Below are positions 1 to 63,430 of a DNA stretch of 64,000 nt, one piece after another (positions within the stretch are counted from its first letter, which is position 1; every line of letters begins with the position of its first letter). Position numbers and translations under genes: made by a program. The notes under the pieces are model-generated. The model did no database searches. It saw only the letters and a list, made by a program, of their open reading frames with translations, and had not been told where the DNA came from. Source of the stretch: Apus apus (Eukaryota; Chordata; Aves; Apodiformes; Apodidae); contig NC_067304.1 in the NCBI RefSeq assembly GCF_020740795.1, forward strand, positions 5,198,056-5,262,055. Reading direction: 5' to 3'.

Positions 1-87
1 ATCCTTGTGCTGGAGAGGCCCCAAGATCCAGAAAACACAAACCCCAAAAGTCCATTCTGCTCTCAGTGAAGATTTCCTTCCCGGTAG

Positions 88-270
88 GGCGGCTGTGTCC
101 CTCCCCGGTGGTGATTGATCGCGGCCAGCACGACGGAGAGGATGTGAAAGTGTTTGCTCCTGGGATGTCTGTAAATTACAGCTGTGATCCTGGCTATTCT
201 CTTACTGGAAAGACAACTCTGTACTGTATGGCAAATGGAACCTGGAGCATCCCTTACCCCCGGTGTGAAG
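88..270 (+). CDS. SCR exon (first in window)
   Basis: One complete 61-codon SCR domain, phase 1 at both ends, between acceptor ...cccggtag and donor gtgagc. The four cysteines sit at C-P-S-P, N-Y-S-C-D-P-G-Y, L-Y-C and P-R-C, with the tryptophan in N-G-T-W-S. It closely resembles the SCR exons at 1027, 4170 and 5031, so it belongs to an internally duplicated set. Two N-glycosylation sequons (NYS, NGT). Confidence 0.9.
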
Positions 271-3200: not shown

Positions 3201-6200
3201 TACCTAAAGGAACTAAAATAGGCCTTGATGCTTGAAATTATTCAAGTGCTACCTGTGAAACTCCCCTGAGCAGTGGCAGGTTATGAATGGAATTTATAGA
3301 TGCACAAATTACAGCATAGACATGGCTTACTCTTTGAGACAATGAATTTGTCTTTCAGAGGTGATGTGTCCAGCCCCACAGATCCAGAATGGGAAAGTAT
3401 CTGTTCTCAAGTATCGCTACATGTACAGAGACACTGTTACCTTCAAGTGCCGTGAAGGTTTCACCTTGCGAGGCCACCACACAGCCCAGTGCCAGGCAGA
3501 TAAAACGTGGGACCCCCCCCCTACCAGTCTGTGAGCAGGGTAAGTGTCAGCACACTGACCTGCCAGCAGATTCCTCCTGACTGCTCCTCCACACTCACTG
3601 AAGCCACATTTGGCTTTATCTTTCCTGTTTGCTCCAACTACTTTCAGGAGAAACCAGAAATTAATCCTTTTATTTACACTTCTCTCCTCACACAGATGAG
3701 CCAGGTTTTAGGTAACACTGTAAGTATGAGCATGGTTTGCACTTCTCTCACCCTGCTTGTTGCAAAGCATAATCCACATTCTCTTCATTTCCCCAAAGTG
3801 AGAAATTTGGTAGCTTCATGGCAGGGCACTGACTGTCAGAGAGGAGTGAAATTTTTGCTGGAAATATAAAGGCAGGATGATGGAAAACTAAGATAAATTT
3901 GTGCATTGTGTTTGCTCAACCAAATGTGTATTTTAAACTCTTAATGCTGCATCTAGATGGAGTGGCAGAACACTATCATCATCATCCTGGTACCACAAGG
4001 AAGCCAGGTAGGTCTGTTTTAAGAAGAGGCAAGATTTATTAAATACTACCTTCTCCTCCAAACCAGTCCTGCTTTTTACAGGGAAGAGGGGTAATTGCAC
4101 TTTTTAACGCTCTTGCTATCATGTTTTTTACAATTAACATCACCCTCCCACCCTCTCCTCCTCTTTCAGTGGTGAAGTGTCTGCATCCTCCACGCATTGC
4201 TAATGGGAAACACAGCAGGCACCTGTCAGACACTTTTGGTGTAGGAGCCCTCGTGCACTACCACTGCAAACGGGGCTTCTCCCTAGTTGGGAACAAGTCT
4301 GTTCGTTGTACAGCACCTGGAGTCTGGAGCCGTCCCCTCCCTCGCTGTGAAGGTGTGTTTGGGCTCCTTCCACTGAATCTTCTCAACTTTACACGTGTTA
4401 AACATTAAGTTATATTTGTGAGGGGACTTGGTGAAACCAGCTGTTGCTTCAACAAGCTCCACCACTAAAGAAAGAAAGAGGCCTCTGGCCAAGAAGAAGG
4501 TCTCTGTGGCCTCCGTGGTCTTTGTCTTGCACAAGTTTCACAGTTTAGAGGGTTCTTTATACCCTCCCTGTCGGCAGCTGGGTGTGAGCCCAAGAGTTGG
4601 GAATGGAACAACCATCAGATTGGAGTCCCTCTGTTGGCCTGGAGACATCACTACAACTGAATGTACCACTGATAATGTCCCAGCAAAGACGATGCTGGGC
4701 CATGTTCCTTTGTGTTGGCAGAAACGTGTGTGGTGCCACGTGCTTCACAGATGATCTGGGGTGAAGTGGGTGCAAAGGGTGGGCAGGGCTGGCTCTGCCA
4801 GTGGATCCAGGGCTGTGGGAAGAGAGGGTACAGCCATCCACAAGTCCTTAAAAGTTTCCCCTCCTGCCTGTATGAGCTCTGGTTTGATCTGCACAAAATC
4901 AGTTGTTGAGTCTTGGTGAAGAAATGAAAAATGAACAATCTAAGGGCTGTGAAGCTGTGGTGCCTTAGTGCTCTCTGGCAGCCCATTGGGATCCTCATGT
5001 CAACACTGCTGTTTGTCCCTGACTTTCCAGTTGTGAAGTGTCTCCATCCTCCAAACATCACCAACGGGAAGCTCAAAGGCAACATCTCTGACAGTTTTTC
5101 CTATGGAGAATCTGTATCCTACACCTGCAATCCTGGCTATGCACTGCTTGGGAATGCTTTCATCAACTGCACCGTGTCAGGAACCTGGAGCCAGCCACCT
5201 CCTCAGTGCAAAGGTGTGTGAGTGCTTGGTTTGCTCATATTGTTTGAAGTTTGTGGTGGCAGAGCCATCAATTCTGGCAAGCAATTTTAATCTTTGCATG
5301 TTTTCCATCTCTGCTCTTGTTGCTATGAATGAGCTCATAGTGACTTTCTTCCAGTAAAATCTTTTTATCTTTAGCAGAAGAGTAGAAACTTTTTCCTTCC
5401 CTTTTTGTGTCCCTCACTCCCCAGTTATCACAAACAGGAAGGAAAGGGAAATATTGTATCAGAGAATTTATCTCTGACGAATGGTCTGCTGCTTACACAC
5501 GAGCCTGACTATTCCCTTTCTTGGAAAATGCCTGGATATCTGTAACTTGGCATTTCTGAGTAGCTCTTTGTGAAGGTCAGTCATCGGGCAAAGCAATAAA
5601 GGCAATTTCATGAATGTCACAAGATTCCTAGTATGGGTGTTCCTGCATGGAAAACTGGACATTCACTGGAATAAATGTATCACCCAGTCAAAGTGCTTCC
5701 TTGGTGGAGTTGCAGCCACCTCAGTGACTCAAGGGTTGAAAAGCCTTGGATAACAATGGGAGGAAATAACCTACCAATTGCTTATGTAAATAAGTCAAGA
5801 GGCTCTTTAAAAGAAGCAGTCTCACTGGAAAGTTCACCCTGCAATTCCACATTCTCATGGTTTTGAAGTGTCCTTAGTAACTATTATGTGTGATAGCAAA
5901 AATAAATATTAAAAATAAAGAAGATGTGAAACTAAGGTGAAAAGATAGATGTTGATGTGACCCCTTTGGTCTCCCCTGAGAACAATCTCCTCCAGAATTC
6001 TTGGGCTTGGACTGTGAAAAGTGATTAGACTCTTAAATGGAAGGAACTAACTCATTATATTGAAATAAGTGGTATGAACAGCTTTTTCTGTTACTTCTAA
6101 TTTCAGAGATCAGATGTGTATTCCCAGAAGTTCAAGGTGTTAAGAAAGACATACGAGGAAATACTTACAGCTCGGGGACCAAGCTGACTCTTGAATGTGA

Positions 6201-7589
6201 TGATGGCTACACGCTGGAAGGCGTCAGCCAGATTCGGTGCCAAGAGGACTTCAGCTGGGACTCTCCTCTACCAGCCTGTAAACTGAGTGAGTGAAATGTA
6301 ACTGAAGCCAAGATCAAACCGAAAGGGGCAAACACATTTGAAATATGCAAAAGTCTTTCTGTATTAAAAAAACAAACCCGAAACATATATATTAAAAATG
6401 GTGTGGTTTTTAAGAAATCCTGTCCCGTAGGCCTAAGCAGTAAAAGCTTCATTGATAAAGTGATTAATCACTACAGTTGGGACACATCATATTTTGTTAG
6501 AACAATGTGCTGATTTTTCTTTTTCCTCTTCCCTTCAGCATCACACAAGTCTGGTTCAGTAGGCCTGGGTAAGCAGCTTAGAATTTTTTTTGTTTGTTTT
6601 TTCGGTTTTTTTTTGTGGCCAGATCTTCAGCTTTCTGCAGTGGCCCCAGAAGCACCATTTCCCTCTGCTTGCTGTGAAGACCTGCCTTGTTATGTCCTTT
6701 GTGTTGATTCGTTTTAAAATACACAGTGAGAATAACACATGCTCTTCCCTCTCAGGAGTGGCAGCTGCAGGAGTCCTGCTTCTCCTGGGGGCAGGCATTG
6801 TCTGGATAATTATTTCTAAGCAGAAGGAAGGGTAAGGAGGTCTTCTGGTTCCTTCATGTCCTTTGTTGCCAAGTCCCAAGTTTTATACACTTTACACACT
6901 TCAAATATTTGCTGGCTGTGCCTGGATCTTGTAATTTTCTATCTTCAGCTCATGCTTACAAACTGTACAAGGCACAGCAAACCTGGAATCAATGGTGTGG
7001 TTATGTGGTTTTCTTTCAAGACTCTCTTCCTTAGAGGAAAACCAACCTGAGTGTTCGTTTACAAACCAATACACTTCCTTGTTTTCTTTTTTTTCCTTTC
7101 ACTTAGCTACTATAATACATATGAAAGCTACAGTTACCAAGCCCCTCTCACCCTGAACACGGAACAGAAATATTCATGTCTTCCACAGAAGGTATGGATT
7201 TATATTCCTCAACATAAAATATCAGTTATAACTGCAAACTTGAGTTGTTCCACCATAGTCATTCCAGTAGAAAACGTCCTTCAATCTTCTGTTAAACATT
7301 CTGGGAGGGCCTGTTTCCTTTTCAATACTCTGAAGAGATGACACAGACTTCCAGCCTTGCCTCTGATTGTTTTTGTTTGTAAGGATTACCTGTCATTTTA
7401 GAGAGCTTACTGTCTAAAAACCTCCCTTAGCAGCAGTAGCATAAGAAAAGGTCTCTGAACTGGGCCTTTGGGGTTTTTTGCTTGCTTTCACACCTACTGC
7501 AATGCCATTTTTACTTACAGGTAAATCTATTTTCTATGCTGAATCTGTTAGACACTAACAACGAACTTTCTGTGTTAGCAGCACTCTGA
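88..7589 (+). CDS. RCA-family complement receptor/regulator, CR1/CR2/C4BP-like, 5'-partial
   Basis: This is the 3' part of a multi-SCR membrane protein; its beginning lies before the window. Spliced exons give nine SCR (sushi/CCP) domains, each with four cysteines and a late tryptophan, followed by a 10-residue linker, a transmembrane exon and a cytoplasmic exon. Exons: 88-270, 406-588, 1027-1209, 1432-1623, 1880-1979, 2545-2630, 3359-3539, perhaps 3957-4007, 4170-4352, 5031-5213, 6107-6286, 6539-6568, 6756-6831, 7107-7191, then either read-through to a stop at 7339-7341 or splicing to 7521-7589. SCR exons join in phase 1; one SCR is split by a phase 2 intron, as in CR1, CD46 and C4BPA. Such proteins bind C3b/C4b or their fragments at the cell surface and limit or sense complement. 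Many N-glycosylation sequons are visible. One exon carries a frameshift at a poly-C run. Whether this is the CR1, CR2 or a bird-specific RCA gene cannot be settled here. The family call is firm, the last exon is not. Confidence 0.85.
406..588 (+). CDS. SCR exon
   Basis: A 183-bp phase 1-1 SCR exon. It reads V-I-N-C-T-S-P-N-I-Q-N-G at the start and V-P-A-V-P-T-C-K-P at the end, with the donor gtgagc. It is a different SCR subtype from its neighbours and is closest by eye to the exon at 3359 (both carry C-x-x-P-x-I-Q-N-G). Confidence 0.9.
1027..1209 (+). CDS. SCR exon
   Basis: A 183-bp phase 1-1 SCR exon between ...ccctttag and gtacac. It shares the C-P-P-N-I start, the N-Y-S-C-D-P-G-Y-S-L-L-G core and the W-S-L-P-F-P-Q-C end with the exons at 88, 4170 and 5031, which marks a recent internal duplication. 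Sequons NYS and NWS. Confidence 0.9.
1432..1623 (+). CDS. SCR exon of the 'SCR1' type
   Basis: A 192-bp exon, phase 1-1, starting G-G-C-G-A-P-P-N-L and holding V-R-Y-S-C-Q-P-G-Y-M-R. The ending E-F-C-K is followed by donor gtgaat after TGT AAA A. It matches by eye the first SCR of the CD46-like gene (Y-x-C-R-P-G-Y-M-R ... A-T-L-T-C) and the long SCR1 type of mammalian CR1, which always precedes a split SCR. That is what follows here. Skipping this exon would keep the frame. Confidence 0.9.
1880..1979 (+). CDS. split SCR, first half-exon
   Basis: Starts in phase 1 (K-Q-C-K-F-P-E-A-P-K-N-G) and stops in phase 2 after S-C-E-E-G, at donor gtgagt. This holds the first two cysteines of an SCR. The position of the split, just after the glycine following the second cysteine, is the same as in SCR2 of CR1/CD46/C4BPA and as in the exon at 10122. 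Confidence 0.88.
2545..2630 (+). CDS. split SCR, second half-exon
   Basis: 86 bp, phase 2 to phase 1, between ...aactccag and gtaagt. Reads H-R-L-V-G-Q-S-H-R-R-C, then W-S-G-V-L-P-I-C-Q. It supplies the third and fourth cysteines and the tryptophan of the SCR begun at 1880. It is too short to stand out as an open frame and is recognised by phase and motif. Confidence 0.88.
3359..3539 (+). CDS. SCR exon with a one-base frameshift in a poly-C run
   Basis: A phase 1 SCR exon beginning V-M-C-P-A-P-Q-I-Q-N-G with cysteines at T-F-K-C and A-Q-C and the tryptophan in K-T-W-D. After nine consecutive C (3513-3521) the frame runs into TGA at 3532. The expected ending P-V-C-E-Q and a correct phase 1 donor (g|gtaagt at 3540) are open one frame over. 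Eight C would restore the exon. This is either an assembly or sequencing error, or a real polymorphism or null allele. All other exons of the gene are intact, which favours error. Confidence 0.8.
3957..4007 (+). CDS. possible 17-codon linker exon, His-rich
   Basis: A 51-bp stretch with acceptor ...gcatctag and donor gtaggt, phase 1-1. It would insert D-G-V-A-E-H-Y-H-H-H-P-G-T-T-R-K-P between two SCRs without changing frame. Both splice sites look good and the length is a multiple of three, but nothing else supports it. Transcript data are needed to decide. Confidence 0.4.
4170..4352 (+). CDS. SCR exon
   Basis: A 183-bp phase 1-1 SCR exon between ...ctctttcag and gtgtgt. Begins V-V-K-C-L-H-P-P-R-I-A-N-G-K and ends W-S-R-P-L-P-R-C-E. 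It is nearly a twin of the exon at 5031, which has the same V-V-K-C-L-H-P-P start. Confidence 0.9.
4565..4727 (+). pseudogene. possible degenerate SCR exon inside an intron
   Basis: Within the intron between two intact SCR exons lies one open frame with SCR-like order: C-R-Q-L-G-V-S-P-R-V-G-N-G, then S-L-C-W-P-G, T-E-C and V-P-L-C-W. The four cysteines, the N-G after the first and the W-P-G after the second fit the family, but the domain is short, the late tryptophan is displaced and no good donor follows. I read it as an eroded SCR duplicate. Chance is possible. Confidence 0.3.
5031..5213 (+). CDS. SCR exon
   Basis: A 183-bp phase 1-1 SCR exon between ...gactttccag and gtgtgt. Begins V-V-K-C-L-H-P-P-N-I-T-N-G-K, then Y-T-C-N-P-G-Y-A-L-L-G, and ends W-S-Q-P-P-P-Q-C-K. 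Three sequons (NIT, NIS, NCT). Near-duplicate of 4170-4352. Confidence 0.9.
5214..6106 (+). other. 893-bp intron, nothing recognised
   Basis: An intron between the last two SCR exons. It holds a 63-codon open frame near 5675-5866 without SCR cysteine spacing or splice sites that fit. I see no other gene or repeat in it. Confidence 0.6.
6107..6286 (+). CDS. membrane-proximal SCR exon
   Basis: A 180-bp phase 1-1 exon between ...aatttcag and gtgagt. Begins E-I-R-C-V-F-P-E-V-Q-G-V, continues T-L-E-C-D-D-G-Y-T-L-E-G, and ends W-D-S-P-L-P-A-C-K-L. It is the last SCR before the linker and membrane exons. Confidence 0.9.
6539..6568 (+). CDS. 10-codon linker exon
   Basis: A 30-bp phase 1-1 exon reading T-S-H-K-S-G-S-V-G-L between acceptor ...cccttcag and donor gtaagc. 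Short Ser/Thr linkers at this place are usual in membrane RCA proteins. Supported by perfect phase with both neighbours. Confidence 0.75.
6756..6831 (+). CDS. transmembrane exon
   Basis: Phase 1 to phase 2, between ...tccctctcag and gtaagg. It encodes a hydrophobic run A-A-A-G-V-L-L-L-L-G-A-G-I-V-W-I-I-I followed by S-K-Q-K-E, a stop-transfer signal. This makes the product a type I membrane protein. Confidence 0.88.
7107..7191 (+). CDS. cytoplasmic tail exon, tyrosine-rich
   Basis: Phase 2 start, phase 0 end at donor gtatgg. Reads G-Y-Y-N-T-Y-E-S-Y-S-Y-Q followed by A-P-L-T-L-N-T-E-Q-K. Six tyrosines fall within the first dozen residues. If the donor is not used the frame stays open to TGA at 7339-7341. 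Confidence 0.75.
7521..7589 (+). CDS. possible last coding exon
   Basis: Follows acceptor ...ttacttacag and is open in phase 0, matching the donor at 7191. It would add V-N-L-F-S-M-L-N-L-L-D-T and end at TGA 7587-7589. It competes with read-through at 7192. Confidence 0.35.
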   Translation, partial: VNLFSMLNLLDTNNELSVLAAL

Positions 7590-8212
7590 AAACAAGCAGT
7601 TTTGCCTACAAAATGGCACCTGTAAACTTTACCTTTTTAATTATTTTTTTAAGGCCAGTTTCAGAGAATTCATCCTTCGAAACAATAGATTTCCCAGAAA
7701 TTCGCTCCTCCCTCCCCGAGTTATAATGAAATCTCTAGACATCAGTGTGAAAACAGGAAAAGCCTCATTGTAACCCCAGGACGTCATCTTTTTCCTAGGC
7801 TGGGGACCCGTGCTGCCACTAACCAGGACTCGTTCCCTGCACAAGGGAGCAGCTGCGTGGAAGCATCCCCCCCCACACCGAGACCGAAATTCTGGGGCAG
7901 AAAAAAACCAAACCAGAGGCGCTTCCCTGTAGAAACATTAATTCTGCTTCTGCTCCCAGTAATTACTGAGAGGATGGGACAAGGCTCAAGCTGCACAGCT
8001 GCTGCTTCAGAGGGGTTCCGTGCTCTGCCCCTGCTCAGTGTTTCTGCCCACACACCCCGTGACGAGCCGGACCCACAACCCCATCCCTGCATGTGTGGAA
8101 GCCACAGGTTGTTAAACCAAATTCTGCCTTAAACCAGCAGCTGCGTTAACGTCCGCAGCGTCTTCTCCCAGCAACACTTTATTTGCAGCGTTCCTCTGTG
8201 GACGCTTCACCC

Positions 8213-8544: not shown

Positions 8545-8632
8545 ATGGGGCCGCTGCTCGCCCGGGGCCCGGGGCTGCGGCTGCTGCGGCTGCTGCCCGC
8601 GCTGCTGTGGCTCGGCGGGACGCGGGCTCAGG
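8545..8632 (+). CDS. CD46: signal-peptide exon
   Basis: Encodes 29 residues: a basic start (L-L-A-R-G-P-G-L-R) and a hydrophobic core ([11 protein letters not shown]), with a likely cut near G-T-R-A-Q. Ends in phase 1 at donor gtgagg, the phase needed for SCR1. Confidence 0.85.
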
Positions 8633-11600
8633 GTGAGGAGAGGGGCCCTGGCTCCCCGCAGCCCAGCGGGGGAGCTGAGGGAGGGAGGAGGGAAGGGGCT
8701 CGTCCTGTCCTCCCGGAGGGGGCTGCGGGAGGAGGGGGGGAAGCTCCCGGGGCCCGGAGCTCCCGGGCCCGAAGCTCCCGAGGCCCGAAGCTCCCGGGCC
8801 CGAAGCTCTCGAGGCCCGAAGCTCCGGGGCCCGAAGCTCCGGGGCCCGACGCTCCCGGGGCCCGACGCTCCCGGGGCCCGAAGCTCTCGAGGCCCGAAGC
8901 TCCGGGGCCCGAAGCTCCCGGGCTCGAAGCTCCCGGGCCCGAAGCTCTCGAGGCCCGAAGCTCCCGGGCCCGCTCGGGGCGGCGCTGGGGAGGGAAGGGT
9001 CTCGGGGCGGCGGGTCCGGTGGGGCCGGGAGGCGGGGGGGGGGCTGGCCCCGAGCCCCGGTTTGGGGGTTACGTTTTCTTTTTTTGTGGCTTGGTGAACC
9101 TCCAAGCGATGAGGCTGTCTCTAACGGGTGTCGTCCGAGAGGGGAAGGCCTCTCGCGTGTAAGTCTTGTGGAAAACTGGGCGGATCTGGCCCTCGTGCCC
9201 GGGTTGCGAGGTCTTGAGCGCGGTCCTGGTGCCCCGGAGGGTTTCACACCTTCAGCGTTAACCGCACCTCGAAATGCCCCAGGGTCTGCGGGTCTCGGGT
9301 GCCTGGGGTAGCTGGTTCCAGGGCCCCCTTCGTGGTCTGCCTGGCTTTTTGCCTCGGGAAAGGAAATTAACCGCGTGGCCGCTGTTTGTTCTCCCTGCCG
9401 CAAGGTAAGGAAGCGCCTCAGCGCGGTGGGTGTGCGGCGCGCTCCGCCCGTGCTCGGCTGCGGGCGGAGAGGGGGACGGTGGAAAGCGCGAGGAAACGTG
9501 TTGTCTGGGTAGAGTGCTGAGGAAGAACTTGAGGAAACAAATAAGCGACCTGCAGTAGCGTAGAGTCGGACAGGGGGTGCGGTTGAAGTGTGAGTTAGCA
9601 AATTGAAAGGTGGTGAAACGCAAAGACGGCTCTGGCTCTTCAGGATGTCAGCGCTTTGATTTACTAAGGAGTTCTTGAAACCTTCTGAATTCGCCTCAGC
9701 GTTGCTTTTGCCTTCCCCTTGCCCCCCAGACGGGTGTCCAGCCCCCGATAGGCTGCAGTACGCGGAGCCCGAGGAGGGGGTGAGCACCGGGCAGAGCTTT
9801 CCCGTCGGAAGCACCGTGTCCTACGTCTGCCGACCAGGCTACATGAGGATCTTCGGGAAATCAGCAACTCTTACATGTGGGGAAGACTTGCAGTGGTCAC
9901 CCATAGAGCAGTTCTGCACGGGTAACGTGTGCCTGAGCTCCTTTGCCTTTGACATTTAACAAGTTAATTGTTTTTCGAGTGGGAATTAGTCTTCTGTAAT
10001 TTTTTTAAGCAAAGCTTGGAAAATGCAAATGACTGTAGGAGCAATATATGCCAAAGACTGAGCCTTTGTGCGTGACTACAAAGATGTTGATTGTTTTTCT
10101 TTTCTTTCCCCTTTTCCCCAGAGAGAAAATGTAATCATCCAGGAGAATTAGAACATGGTTTTATTACTGTAACAGATCTTACATTTGGTTCAAAAGCTAC
10201 TTTTTCTTGTCAAAGAGGGTAAGTATTTTGGTGAAGTGACTGAATCCTTTTTCACTTTCTTCTGAATTAGACCAGATTTGAACCAAACTGAAACTTTCTT
10301 ATGCAGGTTCCATTCAAGTTCTGACTTGAAATGTCTTCTCCTGAATTACACCTGCAGAATTAAAATCACAGCTAATTTTTATTTAATTCCCTGCTTTTAC
10401 TTTCTGTTCACATCAACCAAGGCTTAAGCTTTTTAGTGAGATTCTGCCGAGTGAAAACGAGTGTTACCTTTAATAACTTTTTTTAATGCTTCTCTGTCAG
10501 AGAGAATAAATATATATATGTCACCCTTCATTATTATTTTGAATAATGGCCCACCTGCCTGTATATAGCAAATTAGCTCAAAAGCACTGACCTTCTACAC
10601 AGTTTTTTTCCTCTTTTTGCTTTTAACAACTTATTTTTCAGTGTTAGTAACTTCAGGGCTTTAGTATTAGAGGGAACATGTATTAGAATGGTGAGACTTC
10701 CATCACTTCCTGTAGTGATGTCTCAGTTGCTTCTCTTTTGTTTTCAAAGCTGAGACTGTCAGCATAATAAAAAAAAAATAATTAAAATGCCATTACCATT
10801 AAAACAAAAACTGGGTGTGTCATGTCCTCATATTCACAAAACACAATGATACAAAGTTTCTAGCTGCTTGTTGGAGAAACAAGAAATTTCTCTAAGTTTC
10901 ACCTCTTTAACGGTTCTTTCTTGTCTAGGTTCAGATTAATTGGAACTAGTGAAATTTCCTGTGTAGTTAAGAATAAAGGTGTTGACTGGGATAAAGATCT
11001 TCCTTTCTGTGAAAGTAAGTAAATGACTGTGTTTAAGTTTAGATTGAGATGGTGATAGTTTGTTTACAAAGAGCTGTGCCATGAGCTTTCCAGTTTTGTT
11101 TTGTTTATTTTAAACTAGTGGGGATGTGCCTGAGGAATGAGCACTGAAAAATACCAGTTATTGTGGTAATTGGCTCATATTATTTAAAGTCAGTGTTGTC
11201 TTGGGATTGAGACTCCCTGCAATAAATGGCCTTTGGTAGCTCTGGGGTATAACTGTAGCTTGTCTTAGGAATAACTACATGGCAGATTTTAAATTAAATT
11301 CTTTGAAAATCAAGGCTCGCCATCTCTGAGACAAAAAAGGTAACAGCAAAATCCTGTTGACTAATTGGTGTGGTTTATTTCTAGGAATTCCTTGTGGGCC
11401 ACCTCCAGACATACCCCACGGGCACTACACACCAGCAGCCGACTATGTGTATGAGACAGCAGTGACCTACACCTGTGATCAGGTGCCAAAAGGCTCAGAT
11501 CCCTTCTCCCTGATTGGCTCAGCTACTATTTTCTGCACTTCTGATGAACACTTAAATGGAATTTGGAGTGAACCTCTTCCAGAATGTAAAGGTTGTTGGC

Positions 11601-14600
11601 ATTTTTAATGGACTTCTTTATTATAGCCTCTGTGACTCCAAAACGTCAAGGTCTGTCCCATTTTTTGGAAGGAGACAGGAGGGTTGGGGCTGGGAAAGGA
11701 GCTCCCTCTAGAAAAGAAGAAAAATCCTCTGGTACTAGATTTGGTATAGTTCCAGTGGAGATCAGATCCACTGTGTTATGGATATTGATCAGGACACAGA
11801 ATGTGACTAGCATTTTAAGTTAAAACTTCAAAAATCTGTATGTTGGGAAAAGTGACACAGTGGAGGAACTGAAAGACCATAAAACCTGAGCAGCTGAAGA
11901 AAAATTGTGTGAACTGCAAGAACATGGAAGGTAGATGATAAGTGGTAAGGAGATAATGAAGAACACTTTATCTAAACACTGCTACTATGAAGGGCAGAAA
12001 TAAGTGCAAAGCCCAGCAAGCAGCATGTCTTGCTTTGCAGATGGAGGGAGGGCTACCAGGTGCTTGCATCTTGTTACTTGAGCCCTAAGCAGTGTCACTT
12101 TGTTGTCTGAAATTCTGCCACTGTACAGGAGTATGTCCTTTGGAAGTGGAACATGATTATATCAATTACTACAGTTTCTTATTTATCCATGTACTGATAC
12201 ACCTCAACAGTTCAAGCCCAGGACCTTCTCTTTCAAGAGAAGAACCTGTTCACCAAACCCCTCCAAAACAATTTGAGCAATTAGATAAGGATGCTGTGTC
12301 TGTTGCAAAGAGACTGTTAACAAATGTTTCAGAGCTGTTTTTCTTTTAACTCTTTCAGTGGTCAAATGTGATAACCCAAAAGTTGAAAATGGAAAAAAAG
12401 TGTCTGGTTTTGGACCTTCCTACAGCTACAGGGACTCAGTCAGGTTTGAGTGTGATCCAGGGTTTTTCATGAACGGGTTGAACATCATTACCTGTGGAGA
12501 AGATAACACCTGGTCTCCTGCAAAACCAACTTGTGAGAGAAGTAAGCCTTTAAATAAGAAAATAACTTTCTCTTGTATGTCGAGAATGTTGTAAATCTGT
12601 CTTAGGTAAATTTTTAAATCATAGCACAGTCGTTGGAAATCAGAAGCTAAGGAGTTGATACGGAGCCTCATCAACCATTTCAAGCGTTAGAGTGACTCTC
12701 AACTCCAAAGACTTTTCAGATGGCAGTAGGTTGCCCAGGGAGGTTGTTGATCGCCCCTCCCTGGAGGTGTTCAAGGCCAGGTTGAATGAGGCTTGTGCAG
12801 CCTGGTCTGGTGGGAGGTGTCCCTGCTCGTAGAGGGAGGTTGGAACCTGATGATCTTCAAGGTCCCTTCCAACCTTAACCATTCTGATGGTGTGAGTTGA
12901 GTTACAGATGTGCATGTAGGAGTTGTGTGGATATACTGCACCAGGGTGTTTGTTCTAGTGGTTCTGCATGTAAATAGAGGAGAAAAGATATGCTTCTGAA
13001 TTCTGATAAAAAGAACTAGGAGTGTCCACAATGAGGAAACCGACAGCATCCATCTAGAGGAATCAAAATAATTACAGAGTCTGCTTAAGTGTTCCCTAAT
13101 GAGTGAGCTGGATGGAGCACCTGGAAATTATTCTAGACCTTACAACAATAAATAATTTCTTAGCTGCCACACAGTAAGATCCTATTACCTCAATGCCTGT
13201 AGTGGTATTTCTTTTAAGGCTCATAAAGGAAACGTTTATACTTAAAATTGTGGTAAAGTTAACTGTTCAGATATGCTGATCTCTTTTTCTCATACAAAAG
13301 TAATTATATTTGTGGAGTGAGTTAATGAATTATGAAACATTTAAAGTTTATTATCACTAAACTTACTTTTAAATTAATTGATTAGTTACTGAAGATCGAT
13401 GTGGTGCCCCGAAGATCACAGCTGGGACAGTGATGCCAGCTCAGTCTGTGTATGGAAGAGGAGAATCTGTTCAGGTCAAGTGCATTGCTGGCTGCACTTT
13501 CCCTGATGGCACTGGGGAGATGACAGCAACTTGTCAAGGACAGAATACATGGAGTTATTTAAAAAACTGTACATGTGAGTAAAACTGACAATTGGCAAAA
13601 TCAAGGGCAGAGGGACAGCTCCTTGAGTCTGCTTCATGTGCCACCTCCGTGCTTGGCCTTTATTTCCTTAATTTTTTTCTCCTCTCTTTCCAGGTGGGCC
13701 TGTGAGCTCTGGTTTCACTCCACACATAGATTTTGGTAGAGTAGTTGATGGACAAAAACCTTCATATTCTGTTGGGGATTTTATTAAAATTGAATGTTAT
13801 GCAGGCTACACGTTACATGGTGAAGCTCAAATTCAGTATGTTGGAGAAGACCACTGGGTTCCTGGAGTGCCAACCTGCCATTTAAGTAAGTACCAACTGA
13901 ATGAAAAGACATAGGACCTTCTTTTGTATTCAGGAGAAGTCATTCAATGCAAAGTTCTTTATTTTGATGTAAGAAATACAGGTTTTGGTAACATCAATTT
14001 AAAAATAGGGATATTTAAAGTTAAATAAATGTTAGGATATTAACTGGCCTGTGTTGATAGTACTGCTTGATTAATTTGAAATGACTTTGTGAATATTTTT
14101 TATAATGTTTGTATAGAAAGCATTTATGATCCTCTGGTAATACTGTTTCCCTCTGGTTTTAGGTGCTTATGTTATTGCCATCATCTGTGGTAAGTATCTT
14201 ATCAAACCTGAATGAGACAAGATGTGGATTTCATTTCTTTAATGTAGAATTGATACTCTGGTCATCATGACATAACATGATTTTGGAGTTTTGGTTACTG
14301 TAAAAATGCTTGTCTGCTCCTAAAGCTGCATATTTCAAGAAAAGATTGCTTAGCAATTATAGGTTACATTATTGATAAATATTTACTTTTTCATGTTAAA
14401 TATTTACTTTTTCACTGTATGTGATGCATTAGATTTCAAAGGCAGAATTCCACAATTTGGTCACTTTCAGAAACACTTCAGAGCTTGTTTTTGCTTGAAG
14501 CTTGAATGAATTAACTGTGCCAGTAATCTTACCACTTCCTTATAAACTTGTAAAAAGTCGTATGGGGATGTTGATACACCTCTTTTAATGGTACTTGGGC

Positions 14601-17600
14601 TGGTGGGGTGGTAAAGTCTTGATGGTCACTGTTCTTGAGCTGAACTATCTTTAAAAGTCTTGAGTAAAGCATCAAGTACATATTTATGAAATAAGCCATG
14701 CAAATTTTAAAGGGTTTTTTTGGGGGAGGAAAGGTTGTATGGGACTGTGGATTCAGACTGTGCTATTTCTGCTACAAATTTGAGGCTTTTTTTGTAGAGC
14801 TAGAGGTGGTCTTTATCACTCTAAGGCTTTTTAAAAATTCTTCTTAAAGTGATTGTGGCAGTTGTGGTGTTCCTGGCAGCCTTCTGGGCCTATAAGAAAT
14901 TCTTTTCACAAAATGGGTGAGTAAGCCTACTTTATTATTATTATTATTATTATGACAAAGTTCTACATGACTGAGCAAAAGCAGTGCTAACATGTATGCG
15001 AGTTTCTTGAGCTTTATCTGCCCTTTCTTTTTCAAATGCCTGATGGTTACATGTGAGCTTGTCAGAGCTGAAGTACCTAACAACCTGTTTGACTTCTTGT
15101 GTCTGCTGTTTGGATAAGCTGCTAATTAACTTGCACTCATTTCAAAGAAGGGATAACCCCTGTTTCTAGGCTTCCATTTGGCATAGTTCACTAGCTGAGG
15201 GAAGTGTTGTTTGCATCTGCTCTAAGAACATGCCAGTTTACCTCTTAAAACCAGTGGTGGTGTGAGCTTGTGGTGCTTTGTTGCTTGGATATGCTCTGGC
15301 ATCACTAGATCTCACAGGCTTTAAGATCCAGAGTGGTTTACATGACCTTGGAAGCCTTGGAGGTGACCTAAGGAGCTTCCTCTGCATAAGATGCACCACT
15401 GGCAGTGGGGGTAACTGGACCATCACTTAAGTCTTGTGTTTAGGATGTGCAGCACCTTGGATAAAATAACATGGGCTTAGTTACAAGGAAGATATGAAAA
15501 GATGGATGTCAAGACATGTTCCTCTGCTGCTTGAAAAAGCTGATGGTCAGCTTGGCTGCTGGGATGTTTCATGTGTGGATCTACTGAAGTTTTTTCTCCT
15601 GCAGCAGCAATGATAGGTGTCCCTATGTTAAAGACTTGCAAAATCAACTCTAAAATACTGGATGCATAAGTAGTAGTGGTCTGGTTTTAATAAGATGTGT
15701 AGAGCCTTTTGAACTTGATTTTCTCAACAATTCATTGCTGTGTGTGCTTTCTCATGGATGGGTGGCAGGAGATTTAAATGGCTCTTTGCTCCTTGCTTCT
15801 TGCAATGATGTTGTATTTTGTCTTCTTGATAGAAGCCTATTTTGTTGGAGAAATAGTTTGTAACATAGAAAATACTGGAAATTCAGAGTAAGTCAGGTGG
15901 TACACATAGCATGGTTTGATAAGCAGCTCATCACAACTAAATTACCTTTTCACAAAATCTGTTGGAATTCACCTGGGGTATGTGAAGCAAAGGAAGGGAT
16001 GCTGTAAATAAAGCAAATCAGGGGAAATATTCCTGTGATTCATACTTGTAATGAAGTACACACAGTCCCACTTGGGAAAACCCTGGAGTTAGCTTATACC
16101 CAGGGAGGCTTTAGGCTTAGTATCTTCCATATAGGCAGTAAAGTGTTGTTACAAAGACCTGAGTGGCTCTGTAAGCAGAGTGGCTGTGTACCTGTGTGCT
16201 GCAAAGTAACTCAGTGCTTTGGAGCAATCCCTTTTCATCTGTGACTTGGATAATCTGCAGTCTGGATGGTCCAAGGAGGCGTATGTGGGAGTTAGAAAGT
16301 GCTGTCCTAGTACTTTTGCTTTTGTCTGTGGAGGGTGTAGGAAGGAGGAGGGATCTAAAGCAACATAACTGAAAATTATAGGATGTTGTATTCCTGAGAA
16401 TTTTACAACATGAAAAGTCTTAATGTGCCCAGTGCTTAAGCTTCCTGGCTGTGAACATCTGACTATTAAACCTCTTTCTTGTCTGAGAAACCTCATCTAA
16501 TCTCCTTTTATTAAGGCCTAGATCTCCCTCTTTAGTTTTCTGAGTTTCTGATACAGTTGAACCTCTGTGAACTGTTGTGCTGCCAGTGCCTCATACTTGC
16601 TGGTTTGTAGTCTTCAAATTGCAGCAAAAAATCTGTTCTTGCCCTTTCTTTCTTGTGTGTTTAATCTGCCAGTTTATAGGACATTCAATTAGAACTTTTT
16701 CCCCTTCTGCTGTTCAGCTCATACACAGTTGATGAGAGTTGCAAGGAAACATGTATTTTAAAAACTAATGTACCAGCTGAGATGGAAGAAACTGCACACA
16801 TGAATTAATTGAATCTTAACAAGGTATACAACTTTCCACTTCATTTGGACTTTTGCAACTGAGCTTAAATGTCTTTTTTTTAATTACTATTATGGTTCAC
16901 TTAGAATTTCAGAAGTGTAAAACCTGGCTAACTGAGAATCTCAGTTTCCTGTAGGAGAGACTATTTTGGGATGATAGGACATATTCCATAAAGAATTGTC
17001 AGTCAGTGTCACAAATGATGTCTCCCAGTGGTTGCCCTGTTACATATCTTGGCTTGTTGTTAAAGGATGTGGAATATATTTTTCTCTAAAAATAGAAACT
17101 GTGGATGTTCTCAGTAAAACACTTGCACCTCTTTCAGTCAGGTGAAATGGATTCCAGTGGTGTGTTACTTTTGTTAGGGTCAACATAGGAGTTTGTTTGG
17201 AACTGATTTCCTCTTCTGTGTTTTCACATAGTGCTTAGCCCAGTACTCGGGTGCGTTGATGGCAGCAACAGTTGCTCCTGCACTTCTGTAGGGTCAAATT
17301 AGCTCTTTCAAAAACCTCACTTTTCAAACCTTGTTACAACAGGACAGATTTAAGGCCAGACAGCTTAGTTTACCTGTTCCTTGCCAGCATTTTGTCTTAA
17401 CAATTAAAGTTTGCACTACAAATACTTTTGTAAACTCTTCCTTATCTTCACTTGTGTTGCTCTTCACCATTACACAAACTCTGAAAAGGTAATGGATGAA
17501 ACTTGGTCTCTTATCCTGGCTTAATGCAAAGGTCTTTCCAAATGCATGGTCTTTTTTTAAAGAGCAAGTGAATTGTCAGTCTTTTTTTATAAGTTTGAGA

Positions 17601-18506
17601 TGGCATATAGAAAAACTAAGCTTGGAGTTAGTTCCAGAATAATGTATGGATTAAGGAATATCATCTTTACCTCTGAAGTAAGATGTTTCTGAGTGAAATA
17701 GGATTAGTTTGGCTTATTTCTGGAGAGAGGAAAAAGAAATCAAGAGAGAGACTAGAACAGAGTTCTTATTTCAAATCTTTTGCACAGGACAATGATAAAG
17801 AAATGAATAGCCTGGTATGTGTGCACACTATTAACTGCTGCATTTTTCCTACAGTAGCTGGAATTCCATAGAGACTTAGAGGAATAGTGCAGAGGTTTGA
17901 TGTGGGGTTTCTTCTGTAAAGCAAAACGGGAGTTACTCAGGAACTTGAAAACACACAGATATGGATGTAATAATGAATTTTAATGCTCATCTGTTTAACT
18001 GCTGTAAATCTGCTAATAATGGATTGCAAAGTCATTTCTCACAAATGAATATTCAGCTTCTGCTTATAAAATATGTGCTAAACAACATGCTGTATGTAAA
18101 ATAAATTTATATGGGATGCTTCTGATGTAGTCTCCAAATTAGCTAGGAATCCTGTAACCCTTCTGTCTGATCTCAGTTTCTGATAATGCTTGGGCACGTG
18201 CCATTCATTACTTTAAAAGATCTATTTGGATCAAATGCTTTTCTGCTCTGTGGTCATTCTTAGCAGTTCAATGGATGAAATGAAGGAAAAGTCTCCTTAG
18301 TCTGGGAGTTGCTTAGTAAGAAGAGGACAAATAATGGTTTAGTTTCATGACTTTACCTGTTGATTTAATGATAAAACTAAGGATGTGCTTTCAGTATAAA
18401 TGTAAAAGCCGTTTAAATGTAAAATCTCTGATTTGACTTGTTTTTTTGTTTTAGGAAACATGACAGCACTCCCTGTACTGCCGAATATAAGATCTGTAAA
18501 GCATGA
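8545..18506 (+). CDS. CD46: CD46-like complement regulator, six SCRs, TM, two alternative tails
   Basis: A complete RCA membrane protein. Exons: 8545-8632 (signal peptide), 9730-9921 (SCR1), 10122-10218 plus 10929-11014 (split SCR2), 11385-11591 (SCR3), 12359-12541 (SCR4), 13386-13574 (SCR5), 13694-13885 (SCR6), 14163-14189 and 14850-14916 (transmembrane), then either 16718-16808 (stop; 472 residues) or 18455-18506 (stop; 459 residues). All phases agree. The SCR1 - split SCR2 - long SCR3 order is that of CD46 and CR1. CD46-type proteins bind C3b and C4b and act as cofactors for factor I on the cell's own surface. The pair of alternative tails, one of them with G-S-Y-T-V-D-E-S, argues for CD46 itself, probably the gene called Cremp/CREM in chicken. 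ATG 8545 was chosen for its strong GCCGCG-ATG-G context; ATG 8506 is in frame too. Odd points: SCR6 lacks its third cysteine and SCR5 has one extra. Confidence 0.85.
8633..9729 (+). other. intron 1 of the CD46-like gene
   Basis: Apart from the minisatellite, the first half continues the CpG island, and another CpG-rich patch lies near 9410-9490. No exon is seen. Long open frames here come from base composition. Confidence 0.65.
8740..8972. repeat. GC-rich minisatellite, ~15-bp unit, ~15 copies
   Basis: Tandem variants of a unit like GGGCCCGAAGCTCCC fill about 230 bp of intron 1 of the CD46-like gene. The unit length keeps all frames open, which creates long spurious Pro/Gly/Ser-rich open frames on both strands. 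Copies differ at a few positions (clustered variants CTCTCGAG, CTCCGGGG, CGACGCTC), showing higher-order duplication. Confidence 0.9.
9730..9921 (+). CDS. CD46: SCR1 exon
   Basis: A 192-bp phase 1-1 exon. [11 protein letters not shown] at the start, [17 protein letters not shown] in the middle, ending W-S-P-I-E-Q-F-C-T. Strongly similar by eye to the exon at 1432 of the upstream gene. Confidence 0.9.
10122..10218 (+). CDS. CD46: SCR2 first half-exon
   Basis: 97 bp, phase 1 to phase 2. [13 protein letters not shown] ... [12 protein letters not shown], donor gtaagt. Same split place as in mammalian CR1/CD46 SCR2. Confidence 0.88.
10219..10928 (+). other. 710-bp intron inside SCR2
   Basis: AT-rich intron between the two halves of SCR2. 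I see no repeat family or exon in it. Confidence 0.6.
10929..11014 (+). CDS. CD46: SCR2 second half-exon
   Basis: 86 bp, phase 2 to phase 1, the same length as the half-exon at 2545. [11 protein letters not shown] ... W-D-K-D-L-P-F-C-E, donor gtaagt. Confidence 0.88.
11385..11591 (+). CDS. CD46: SCR3 exon, long type
   Basis: A 207-bp phase 1-1 exon. [38 protein letters not shown], ending [11 protein letters not shown]. The long form with a charged insert after the second cysteine is the CR1/C4BPA/CD46 SCR3 type. Donor gttgtt is weaker than usual. Confidence 0.9.
11592..12358 (+). other. intron between SCR3 and SCR4
   Basis: 767 bp with two short open frames that have no SCR motifs. Nothing else recognised. 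Confidence 0.6.
12359..12541 (+). CDS. CD46: SCR4 exon
   Basis: 183 bp, phase 1-1. [30 protein letters not shown], ending [10 protein letters not shown]. Typical SCR with all four cysteines. Confidence 0.9.
12725..12892 (+). mobile_element. CR1 LINE 3' fragment
   Basis: Reads like the 3' end of the avian CR1 retrotransposon: TTGCCCAGGGAGGTTG..., CCCTGGAGGTGTTCAAGGCC and a terminal GGTCCCTTCCAACC...CATTCTGATGG. It is truncated at its 5' side as most copies are, and lies in the intron between SCR4 and SCR5 in the sense orientation. Confidence 0.85.
13386..13574 (+). CDS. CD46: SCR5 exon with an extra cysteine
   Basis: 189 bp, phase 1-1. [24 protein letters not shown], ending W-S-Y-L-K-N-C-T. 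The four canonical cysteines are present. A fifth (TGC 13493-13495) replaces the aromatic residue that usually follows the glycine after the second cysteine. Found by splice phase and motif. Confidence 0.85.
13694..13885 (+). CDS. CD46: SCR6 exon lacking its third cysteine
   Basis: 192 bp, phase 1-1. Its first cysteine is made at the splice junction (t|gt), followed by G-P-V-S-S-G-F-T-P. The second (I-K-I-E-C) and fourth (V-P-T-C) are present, but the third is tyrosine (TAT 13837-13839 in A-Q-I-Q-Y-V-G-E-D). The late tryptophan is kept. Membrane-proximal SCR. Confidence 0.85.
13886..14849 (+). other. introns flanking the first transmembrane exon
   Basis: AT-rich introns (13886-14162 and 14190-14849) around the 27-bp exon 14163-14189. 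No repeats or genes recognised. Confidence 0.6.
14163..14189 (+). CDS. CD46: first transmembrane exon
   Basis: A 27-bp phase 1-1 exon, S-A-Y-V-I-A-I-I-C, between ...ggttttag and gtaagt. It starts the membrane helix, which the next exon completes. A very short exon of this kind before the TM exon is usual in RCA genes. Confidence 0.75.
14850..14916 (+). CDS. CD46: main transmembrane exon
   Basis: 67 bp, phase 1 to phase 2. [14 protein letters not shown] followed by Y-K-K-F-F-S-Q-N, donor gtgagt. Helix plus cytoplasmic basic anchor. Phase 2 exit fits both tail exons. Confidence 0.88.
14930..14953. repeat. (TTA)n microsatellite
   Basis: About eight TTA units just after the transmembrane exon donor. 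Confidence 0.9.
14954..16717 (+). other. 1.8-kb intron before the first tail exon
   Basis: AT-rich intron sequence with only chance open frames. Confidence 0.55.
16718..16823 (+). CDS. CD46: alternative tail exon, CYT1-like, with in-frame stop
   Basis: Follows acceptor ...gctgttcag in phase 2. Encodes [13 protein letters not shown], then [17 protein letters not shown] and TAA at 16806-16808. A donor aag|gtatac follows 15 bases after the stop, so the exon can be spliced to 18455 or skipped. In human CD46 the optional exon likewise contains the stop, and its tail begins T-Y-L-T-D-E-T, which lines up with S-Y-T-V-D-E-S. Such tails carry sorting and signalling motifs. Confidence 0.8.
16824..18454 (+). 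other. intron between the two tail exons
   Basis: 1.6 kb, AT-rich, no further exon recognised. Confidence 0.55.
18455..18506 (+). CDS. CD46: last exon, CYT2-like alternative tail
   Basis: Acceptor ...ttgttttag; in phase 2 it encodes [17 protein letters not shown] and TGA at 18504-18506. Used as coding only if the exon at 16718 is skipped; otherwise it is 3'UTR. The A-E-Y recalls the A-E-Y of the human CYT2 tail. Confidence 0.78.
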
Positions 18507-18666
18507 ATGACCTTTTTTGGGGGTGGGAGAGAATTTGCAGTTGAATATATCTATCAGAAATGGAATATTATTGTACTTGCCTTGAGTTTCTGTAGATTAA
18601 TTATCTTGTTCTATGTCCTATACTACTGATTAACTGTCATAGGGAGTTTATTGATAGGATAAGAAT

Positions 18667-18685
18667 AATATATATATATATATAT
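18667..18685. repeat. (TA)n microsatellite
   Basis: About nine TA units in the 3'UTR of the CD46-like gene. Confidence 0.9.
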
Positions 18686-20359
18686 CTGCTTTCCTTGTGG
18701 GCCACTCATACTGTCTTTTCTGTGTATGTGGAATGATCTTAAAGACACTTACGTGTAGCCTGCAGGAGTGTCTGTGTCAGCAGAAGTACTGGTCATGTCA
18801 CTGTCACAGCACCTGCTGCTGCTGCCTTCAGTGCTACCTCTTTACCTCCAGAAGACTGTCCAATCAATGTCAGTTGTTCTCACTTAAAACCTGAATGTGC
18901 TTCTTGTTCGTTGTTGCGGTTGAGGCAGTGAACAACATGATGTCTCTTGGATTCTGAAATGTTTTACTGTTCATTTCCTTAAGAGATTGGTGCCATTGGT
19001 GCTGTGTCTTTATAAAACTGTCAGTTTAGATCTTAGGTATACTACCTCTTTGTTTGCCAAAGTTGGTTTCTGTATATCTGATGAATTGTGCCTTTAAATC
19101 AGAGTTTTAGAGCTTTTCCATTGCCTTTAAGAAGGGAAAAAAAGCCATCTATATTTTTGGCTCTTGGATATAGTCCCAGAAAGACTACAGAGGATTTGTT
19201 GGAATGGAGAACTGGAAGTTCCTATAGCAAAGGTATCCCCTGTCTTTAAATTTGTTGGCCTGTCGACAGAAGGTGCCTAATTAAATGAACTGTTGAGGAA
19301 TCAGTGGTACCCATCTCCTGTCAGGAGCAGAGTATAAATACCCTAGGATGCTTGTTTGTTTTGTTGAGCCTTGATGTCAGTTTTAGAGAAAATTTTGTTG
19401 CTCTTCAGGATAGAAAGGATGCTGTATGGGTCTAGATTCCTTGCTTTTTTTACTTGGAAATCATCTCTTCCACATACAGCATTGCAAATCTGTGTACAGA
19501 CACTGATGCTAGGTCTGCCTCTGCAATGCTAGACTGAGCACCTGGTGGGGTTGAGAAACAGTCTTTCCCTGCCTGACTCCCTTCTCTTGCCATGTTAAAG
19601 GAAAACCAGACCAGCTTAGCTGCAGGAATGAAGGAGTGGGTGTGCTGGAAGTGACAGTAGATGTGGTCTCTCTTCAGGTATCTGCTTACTTCATCAAGCA
19701 TTTTAGTCAAGCCTGTGATTCCAGGAGCTCCCATCACAGAATTTGCTGTGAGGTGAGACTCAGATGTGCATTGATAGCTGTTACTTTAAAGGCATATTTT
19801 CTATTTCTAATTCCTTGTTTAAGCTAAAAGCTTAATTAGGAAAGGTTTTGGCTTTGTGAATCTCTGAGTTTGCTGCCAACATGCAGGCAGCCTGTAGGAA
19901 CCAGTTGTCCCAGAAAAACCCACTTGCCTCACTTCAGAAGACTGAGGCAGCTTTTAAGCTCTGGCTTGTCTGTGGTGGATTGGCACTGCTCTCCACTGTC
20001 ATGAGCAGATTGAGTAACAGAACTGTTCAGGGCTTTATAGGGCTTTTTGGGACAGTCCCAGCAGTTGTATTGTCAGTGTTCATAGTAGTATTTGGTTATT
20101 AAAAAGGGGTTTTGGCCACACAGAATGGCTTGCTGTTCATTGCCTGGCTGATATGTGGTTTGATAATTGTTTGTACATACTATGACAATGCACTGGGAAT
20201 TGAGCATGTTGGTCACTAGCTTGATTGTGTGTGGCATCTTCAATGCTCTGAAATACGCTGAAATGCACTTAGTGCTAAAGTGAAATAACTGTAAGAAATG
20301 GCCTTATTTTTATACTTTTTTTCCAGATGTAAAAACTAGTGGTGACTTGTAATGTTACA

Positions 20360-20365
20360 AATAAA
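20360..20365 (+). terminator. CD46: poly(A) signal of the CD46-like gene
   Basis: Perfect AATAAA followed within about 30 bases by a GT/T-rich stretch (AGTGTTTGTCTTTC), the usual cleavage context. Confidence 0.65.
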
Positions 20366-21852: not shown

Positions 21853-21942
21853 TCCCCCTACATCATAACCGATTTCAAATGGTGCTAGACAAAAACTGAG
21901 ACTCTGAACACCAAGAGAAATCGGTCAGCCTGTGTAAGAGAT
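21853..21942 (-). ncRNA. MIR29C: microRNA precursor mir-29c
   Basis: On the - strand this folds into a hairpin. The 3' arm (21866-21887) is an exact copy of mature miR-29c-3p, with seed AGCACCA (UAGCACCAUUUGAAAUCGGU...). The 5' arm (21906-21927) matches miR-29c-5p except one base by recall. The flanks AGGGGGA and CTTACACAGGCT of the human precursor are also there. The loop has two bases more than the human one. miR-29 represses collagen, elastin, DNMT3 and other mRNAs. Its place between CD46 and CD34, on the opposite strand from CD46, is the same as in human. Confidence 0.97.
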
Positions 21943-22753: not shown

Positions 22754-22833
22754 CTCCTAGAACACTGATTTCAAATGGTGCTAGATACAAAGTGGGAAAA
22801 TCTAAGCCACCATGTGAAACCAGCTTCCAGAGG
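22754..22833 (-). ncRNA. MIR29B2: microRNA precursor mir-29b-2
   Basis: On the - strand, the 3' arm (22761-22783) is an exact miR-29b-3p, which differs from 29c by the ending AAAUCAGUGUU. The 5' arm (22802-22823) matches miR-29b-2-5p (CUGGUUUCACAUGG...). The stem flanks CTTCC...GGAAG-like and TAGGAG match the human mir-29b-2 precursor. It lies about 0.8 kb upstream of mir-29c on the same strand, so both come from one primary transcript, 29b-2 first. Confidence 0.97.
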
Positions 22834-50289: not shown

Positions 50290-51615
50290 TTTTTTTCAAC
50301 TGGGATTATTTACAGTGAGATCTGGGAGAAGCAACTCACACCAAAACAAGCAAAACCTGAAACATTTTAAACTGTGTTTACATGACTCTTCACCCATGGC
50401 AACAGCCCCAGGCAATGATGGCCGTTGCTGTCATTCCTTTAAGCACTGTACCAAAATAAAAAAGAAGTCTTCCCCTCATGATAAATTCACTATTGAGAGG
50501 GAAGATCAGCTCCAAGGGCCGTTTTTGTCCTTATTTCAGATGTGGGAGTTGCTGCTGGTGCCAGCAGAGGTTCTGGTCTGAACTGCAGCCTCTCGTGCTC
50601 TTGCAGCATCAAGGAGGAGCTGCAGGTACTTGGGGCTGAGCTCAGACCCGTCCCTGCTCCCCCAGAGCTGCTTGGAGCTCCTCAGGGATGTGGCTGGTGG
50701 CACAGGAGCCTTGGGAGCAGGACCAGTGCTGAGCGAAGTAGGACCTGCTGCTGTTGTTGGGATTTTGGTGTTGGCCTTCACTAACCAAAGGAAAATTACT
50801 TCTTTTTGTTCCTGTACCCACTGCAGAGGAACCCCTGTCATGGAACCAGGCTCCTGCCCAGCACTCATCCCACTGGCAGCCCTTTGGCATCTTAGTTTCC
50901 TAAAGTCCAACCCTGGGCACAGGCTGGAGAAGATTTTTACTCTAAACCAACTACCTACATACTGGTAGGATTGAAAAAGAATCAAGTTTGAGGTCTATCC
51001 ATGTTTCAACCTTCAATTCCACATGGAAAGTTTTACACAGAGCTTCAGCAAATTCTGCTGGAGTAGGAAATACTAAAGGAGACAAAGCACAAGAAGAAGG
51101 ATTAAATGCCTGATGTTCTTAAAAGAGGAAGAAATCCTGCACTTAAACATAAAGATGAGATAAAACACAACTCTGTTAACCAAAATTATCTGAAACCTGA
51201 GAGGGTTTTGTCACTGAAATCCCAATTTAACTATTTCAATCAGCCTAACGCACAGGCACCAACAGATCAGGCTGTTTGGAGTCTGGCTCGAGGCTTCTGT
51301 AGCTTTGTTCTGCCTCTGCTAAAAAGCTGTTGGGGACTAAGGGCACTTGTGTTTCTCATTATGTTCTTCTAACAACAAAAGCAGAGAACAGCTGTGAAAA
51401 AGTGTCTTGTGTGGTCAGTGGGAGGAGGCAGAAGAGCAGGTCTTCGGCAGCTCTGCCGCTTCATGTGCTTTAGGCTGATTTTTGAAGTTCTTCACAGAAA
51501 TACTGATTCAAAAAAAAATAAAAGGTCTGCAGTTCCCAAACTGTCCACAGAAAACTCCTGACCTCCCTGGTGTCTCTGCTCCTGGCTGGTGCTGGGGACA
51601 CGCTCCTGGCCTGGT

Positions 51616-51807
51616 TCACATCTCGGTGTCAGCAGGGCTGTGCTGCCGGGCTGAGTGGCCGTTCTTGGAGGACGCTTGGCCAGTACCGTTCTCCTGAGTC
51701 CCACCATTGAGGTTTGGCTTCTCCTGCAGCTCGGGTTGCTCCTGGGGGGGCATCATCAACATCGTGTTTCCCTGGCTACCATTTTCCGTGTAATACGGGT
51801 CTTCAGC
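51616..51807 (-). CDS. CD34: CD34 exon 8, cytoplasmic tail
   Basis: Acceptor ...acctgttcag, phase 0. [13 protein letters not shown] at the start, then a diverged middle (M-L-M-M-P-P-Q-E-Q), then near-invariant C-terminal third to D-T-E-M and stop at 51616-51618. Confidence 0.97.
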
Positions 51808-63214: not shown

Positions 63215-63430
63215 TGTTGAACTTCCCAAGAGCAGCAGCATTCCTGCTGGCAGTTCCCGCTCTGGCCGTGGCAGCTGGGGGGGTTTCAGTCCTGCTGCAG
63301 CTCTGAGCTCATGTGGCTTGGTTTGAGTTCAAGCCTTTGAGATCACTCGCTTGTGGGGTGGGTTTCTCTTCAGGGGTTGTGCTTACGGCTCGAGGCTGCG
63401 AGGTGGAGTTTCTCCGATTTGATTTCACAG

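Follow-up and report, generated by a model that had tools for sequence, protein, structure and literature searches.

Two candidate alternative cytoplasmic tails in a CD46-like complement regulator gene of Apus apus and their likeness to the tails of human CD46

The locus analysed here raises the question of whether the choice between two cytoplasmic tails that is known from human CD46 may also be encoded in a bird gene of the RCA family. In human CD46, inclusion of exon 13 yields the CYT-1 tail and its exclusion yields the CYT-2 tail, which bears out the precedent that the original prediction had invoked for this locus; separate primers are used for the 12-13 and 12-14 junctions, and inclusion of exon 13 is repressed by SRSF1 and PTBP1 (PMC5064401, excerpt). 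The exons of human CD46 are arranged in the order SP, CCP1, CCP2a, CCP2b, CCP3, CCP4 and, further downstream, TM-A, TM-B/anchor, CYT-1 and CYT-2/3′UT (PMC12043084, excerpt). The DNA in question (hereafter the window) is a stretch of 64,000 nucleotides of Apus apus, positions 5,198,056 to 5,262,055 of contig NC_067304.1, and all coordinates given below are those of the window.

The RCA gene of interest occupies positions 8545 to about 20365 on the + strand. Ten exons that would be shared by both proteins lie between 8545 and 14916, with AG/GT borders throughout and a single open frame, and they leave in phases 1, 1, 2, 1, 1, 1, 1, 1, 1 and 2. On the + strand, these are a signal-peptide exon (8545-8632) that is open from its ATG and leaves through a GT donor in phase 1, the exons of SCR1 (9730-9921, Pfam Sushi), SCR2a (10122-10218, phase 2 on leaving), SCR2b (10929-11014), SCR3 (11385-11591), SCR4 (12359-12541) and SCR5 (13386-13574), the exon of a sixth, SCR-like domain (13694-13885), a TM-A exon of 27 nt (14163-14189) and a TM-B/anchor exon (14850-14916) that leaves in phase 2. 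Pfam recognised six Sushi stretches over the encoded protein, the sixth domain having three cysteines (Cys 348, 382 and 409) instead of four. In the intron after SCR4, a stretch at 12700-12900 (+) is similar to the 3′ end of a CR1 LINE, which we take to be a piece of the avian type.

Two further exons follow on the + strand. The first tail exon (16718-16823) is open in phase 2 and contains a TAA stop at 16806-16808, with a GT donor at 16824, 15 nt past the stop; the resulting tail 1 has 30 residues after TM-B/anchor and the C-terminal end AHMN. The second tail exon begins at 18455 and is also open in phase 2; its coding part (18455-18506), which is the start of the last exon, encodes a tail 2 of about 16-17 residues after TM-B/anchor, and the TGA at 18504-18506 ends the protein. 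An AATAAA at 20360-20365 (+) probably serves, judged by its motif, as the poly(A) signal of the last exon. Our exon model reproduced, in coordinates and phases, the arrangement that had been predicted, i.e., a TM exon leaving in phase 2 and two later exons both open in that phase, the first with its own stop and a donor 15 nt after it and the second ending the protein.

The SCR domains are misleading as to which RCA gene this is, as had been anticipated. When the ectodomain was searched against the PDB, the strongest among the best 60 of 81 matches were CR1, CR2 and factor H, partly by adding up many domains, and over one stretch Crry (1.7e-62) was ahead of human CD46 (2.4e-51), so that all four stood above human CD46. 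The neighbourhood of the gene was not part of the original argument. Downstream of the gene (+) are two mir-29 genes on the - strand, followed by CD34 on the - strand. The first mir-29 precursor (21863-21930, 65.9 bits, mature core 21871-21887) has a mature end that is presumably of the 29c type and the second (22759-22828, 73.4 bits, mature core 22767-22783) one that is presumably of the 29b type. Pieces of CD34 were read by eye within 51540-63230, and three were scanned: the TM and tail piece matched Pfam CD34_antigen with an E value of 2.8e-48, one piece had an E value of 2e-4, below the curated cut-off, and one had no match. We assume that the human mir-29b2/c host gene is on the strand of CD34, as it is in the bird. 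In human and mouse, the mir-29b2/mir-29c host gene is found between CD46 and CD34, its place and direction being conserved between both species (PMC8268529, excerpt). Because the CD46/mir-29/CD34 neighbourhood is the same as in human and mouse, the identification of this gene as the avian ortholog of CD46 is supported.

Avian CD46 is already known as a gene. According to a 2024 paper, chicken CREM and duck CD46 share the domain plan found here, with five SCRs, an SCR-like domain, a TM and a tail (PMC11481396, excerpt). Like human CD46, the bird gene has an SCR2 that is split across two exons (2a/2b) and a TM that is split across TM-A and TM-B/anchor exons, and its exons, from the signal peptide to the two tails, follow the human order (PMC12043084, excerpt). 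In contrast, human CD46 has four SCRs and the bird gene six SCR-type domains, and an STP exon is missing from the bird exon model, small optional intronic exons being outside the scope of that model. Teleost Tecrem and CsCD46 are also membrane SCR regulators that have been called CD46-like, although CsCD46 has four CCPs (PMC5670209, excerpt).

Upstream of the CD46-like gene, at about 1-7790 (+), is the 3′ part of another RCA gene. In a comparison that used six of its SCR exons, without the one that is out of frame and three further ones downstream, its best matches were CR1 and CR2, followed by factor H and DAF. In the SCR exon at 3359-3540 (+) of this gene, we noticed a run of nine C, and the last residues, as read by eye, are out of frame with a stop, reflecting either an assembly error or a real frameshift.

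The explanation that we favour, and hold to be probable, is that the gene is avian CD46, known as CREM in chicken, and encodes a membrane-bound complement regulator in which five SCRs and an SCR-like domain are followed by a TM spread over two exons and by either of two alternative tails, and that this arrangement was probably inherited from the amniote ancestor. As in human CD46, a stop-bearing exon, predicted to be optional, is placed before the last exon, and both tails are entered from the TM/anchor exon. One pre-mRNA would then give rise to two proteins that are identical outside and different inside. If 16718-16823 is included, translation would stop within the exon to leave a 30-residue CYT-1-like tail; skipping it would join the TM exon to 18455 in the same phase and leave a 17-residue CYT-2-like tail. 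The S/T-x-K/R-E near a tyrosine in the longer tail would thereby give way to the A-E-Y motif of the shorter one. Nonsense-mediated decay spares stops that are close to the last junction, and given that the stop of tail 1 is only 15 nt before that junction, the mRNA that includes the exon should be spared. We infer that both splice forms are made and that the two tails signal differently.

The start of tail 1 had been predicted to resemble that of human CYT-1, and this proved to be so, most clearly when the two were aligned without gaps from the first residue. The letters of human CYT-1 were confirmed by PDB 8qk3_E (numbered V360 to L392), in which CYT-1 position 7 corresponds to T383, and the bird and human tails are alike at Y2, D5, E6, S/T7, K/R9 and E10. 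The comparison set consisted of all phase-2 peptides that follow an AG on either strand and are 10 residues or longer (n = 6,527), shorter peptides being left out. Tail 1 ranked first of these 6,527 in the ungapped comparison with CYT-1 (score 23; runner-up 19) and first of the 230 within 14917-20365, where the second scored 14, and shuffled tail-1 letters reached 23 in 0.1% of cases (p 0.001). By local alignment, 30 of the 6,527 peptides matched CYT-1 as well as tail 1 did (shuffle p 0.04), and when all three phases were allowed, two of 19,509 AG peptides of at least 10 residues were better than tail 1 (scores of 28 and 26). A score of at least 23 was found in 14 of 60 first-order resamples of the 64-kb + strand, and 23 was reached in 19 of 1,000 and 69 of 4,000 resamples of the 5.4-kb region in two runs. 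Human CD46 was not recovered when the bird TM and tail 1 were searched against the PDB, the sole match being 8c3w_A (dnHEM1; E 0.12). The same query against viral contigs gave 37 pattern-matched stretches, none of which was confirmed, and a text search of the open-access literature with the tail peptides found no paper.

Sites that resemble the tail exons in splice anatomy are common. An acceptor as good as that of tail 1 with a phase-2 opening of 8-45 residues occurs at 168 sites in 128 kb (both strands), the real tails among them, and 33 of the 168 also have a donor as good. Splice anatomy alone was rejected as evidence, since these 33 sites, tail 1 included, are equally good. A further phase-2 opening, at 19409 (+) in the presumed 3′ UTR, has an acceptor of 6.2, a stop and a donor of 2.8, and was taken as a decoy. 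Anatomy combined with resemblance to the human tails is, however, beyond chance: when the 5.4-kb region was resampled 4,000 times (first-order), the acceptor, CYT-1 score, stop and donor were jointly found in 2 resamples, a tail-2-like candidate (acceptor and CYT-2 score) was found in 4 of the 4,000, and both tail-like candidates in order were found in none, figures that flatter the finding because the thresholds were the observed values and the question was posed after the tails were seen.

The most serious alternative, which we nevertheless judge unlikely, is that tail 1 of this CD46 gene is real and constitutive, a family-wide RCA tail shared with CR2, and that the exon at 18455 is 3′ UTR spliced from 16823, with a 16-residue phase-2 opening that arose by chance and no switch at all. 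The human CR2 tail, in the letters that we assume for it, scores 22 against tail 1, which ranks second of the 6,527 peptides in that comparison, and 24 against human CYT-1, values that are close to the 23 between CYT-1 and tail 1; the CR1 tail, with letters likewise assumed, scores 1 against tail 1 and 0 against CYT-1. When used as PDB queries, the CR2 tail matched only three dTor repeat proteins and the CR1 tail nothing. Tail 1 as proof of orthology was rejected on the same grounds: the assumed CR2 tail matches it almost equally (22 vs. 23), and the claim of the original prediction that the tail provides strong orthology evidence could not be upheld.

A constitutive tail 1 would also agree with the weak resemblance between tail 2 and CYT-2, for which we used presumed CYT-2 letters, as a PDB query with them matched 8qk3_E only in the anchor part that both tails share. 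The ungapped score of 11 was reached by 102 of 6,527 peptides (shuffle p 0.026), the gapped score by 207 (p 0.078) and the local-alignment score by 1,734 (p 0.34), and tail 1 matched CYT-2 better by local alignment (22) than tail 2 did (16). Taken alone, the likeness of tail 2 to CYT-2 appears weak and does not stand out. Arguing against a constitutive tail 1 are the rarity of tail-2-like candidates with an acceptor as strong in the resampled regions (the 4 of 4,000 given above) and the K-x-D and A-E-Y motifs that tail 2 retains from CYT-2, as we take the latter to read. We know of no CYT-2-like partner tail for CR2. Under the favoured explanation of two alternative tails, tail 2 would be homologous with CYT-2.

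Splice strength, calculated with generic weights and ranked against all AGs and GTs on both strands of the window, bears on how tail 1 might be processed. The acceptor of tail 1 scores 4.07 (3.0% of 9,757 AGs equal or better) and that of tail 2 scores 7.29 (0.4% equal or better), both being inside the range of the nine other acceptors of the gene (-5.94 to 9.46). The donor of tail 1 scores 0.40 (9.7% of 6,594 GTs equal or better) and is the second lowest among the 11 donors of the gene, a weakness that suits an optional exon, yet would also be expected of a chance site. Nine PTB-like motifs are present in the last 150 nt of the intron upstream of tail 1, the most among the 11 introns of the gene (others 0-7), and this excess and the weak donor would together fit an optional exon, which is a hint only.

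The same weak donor, along with an AATAAA at 18100 (+) between the tail exons, at which a tail-1 transcript might end before any splicing to 18455, would fit a tail 1 that serves as an alternative last exon, polyadenylated at its own site, instead of a cassette spliced to 18455; both tails would still be real in that case. We regard this as improbable, given that human exon 13 is a cassette before exon 14 (PMC5064401, excerpt) and that a donor whose score is matched by 9.7% of the GTs in the window is usable.

It is more improbable still that birds and mammals acquired two tails independently of each other, by convergence on short tails. By eye count, tail 1 and CYT-1 share only 4 identities in 16 ungapped positions, and human CYT-1 ends in FTSL, an end that was not found in the bird, where tail 1 ends in AHMN; tail 1 is also longer than CYT-1 and tail 2 shorter than CYT-2. 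The position in the gene, order, phase and stop-in-exon layout are, however, the same, and both tails match in order, which none of the 4,000 resamples did. Finally, it is scarcely credible that both tail exons are fortuitous open stretches of a long 3′ intron and that the true tail is elsewhere, for although 33 sites in 128 kb, tail 1 included, share the anatomy and one of them, at 19409, lies downstream of tail 2, the joint resampling (0 of 4,000) and the first rank of tail 1 for CYT-1 among 6,527 peptides speak against it. Comparison of the bird and human tails suggests instead that a signalling-tail switch may be older than the bird/mammal split.

The comparison with CR2 also bears on the age of the tail exon. 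Although CR2 is another gene, its tail in the letters that we assume has Y2, D5, S7, K9 and E10 in common with bird tail 1. Given that Y2, D5, S/T7, K/R9 and E10 are common to bird tail 1, CYT-1 and this CR2 tail, this type of exon probably predates CD46. We tentatively propose a more specific scenario, which may well prove wrong, in which the CYT-1 exon is an old RCA-family module that predates CD46, with the core Y2-x-x-D5-x-[S/T]7-x-[K/R]9-E10 present in bird CD46, human CD46 and, in the letters assumed, human CR2; CD46 would have made it a switch before the bird/mammal split, and the FTSL PDZ end and the link to GOPC and autophagy would be additions of the mammalian line alone.

The tail exon of the upstream RCA gene is weakly like tail 1 (score 11, shuffle p 0.03), CYT-1 (12, p 0.05) and CR2 (8, p 0.2). 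In this gene (6756-7790, +), the TM exon also leaves in phase 2, an 85-nt tail exon (7107-7191) shifts the phase, and the exon at 7654 has an open frame both with and without the 85-nt exon. A second tail switch in the upstream gene is conceivable.

In the part of the open-access matches that was covered, as titles and the starts of abstracts and with the primary chicken papers outside it, the two tails of avian CD46 were not recognised, and public annotation may list both ends. In T cells of humans, activation is associated with CYT-1 and contraction with CYT-2, and the FTSL end of CYT-1 binds GOPC and thereby links to autophagy (PMC12043084, excerpt). Given that bird tail 1 ends in AHMN, the bird is expected to lack this GOPC/autophagy link or to make it by another path. 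For the human variant T383I, aHUS and miscarriage are listed, along with a possible disruption of a phosphorylation site (PMC4469999, excerpt), and bird tail 1 has S at the equivalent position. If the proposed history is true, the old part of CYT-1, i.e., the core at positions 7-10, would be set apart from a possibly mammalian PDZ end, and the T383I variant would gain a context in the conserved position 7. Birds and mammals split more than 300 million years ago. Should both tails be made from the bird gene, the switch would be older than that, and chickens would be a test animal for it.
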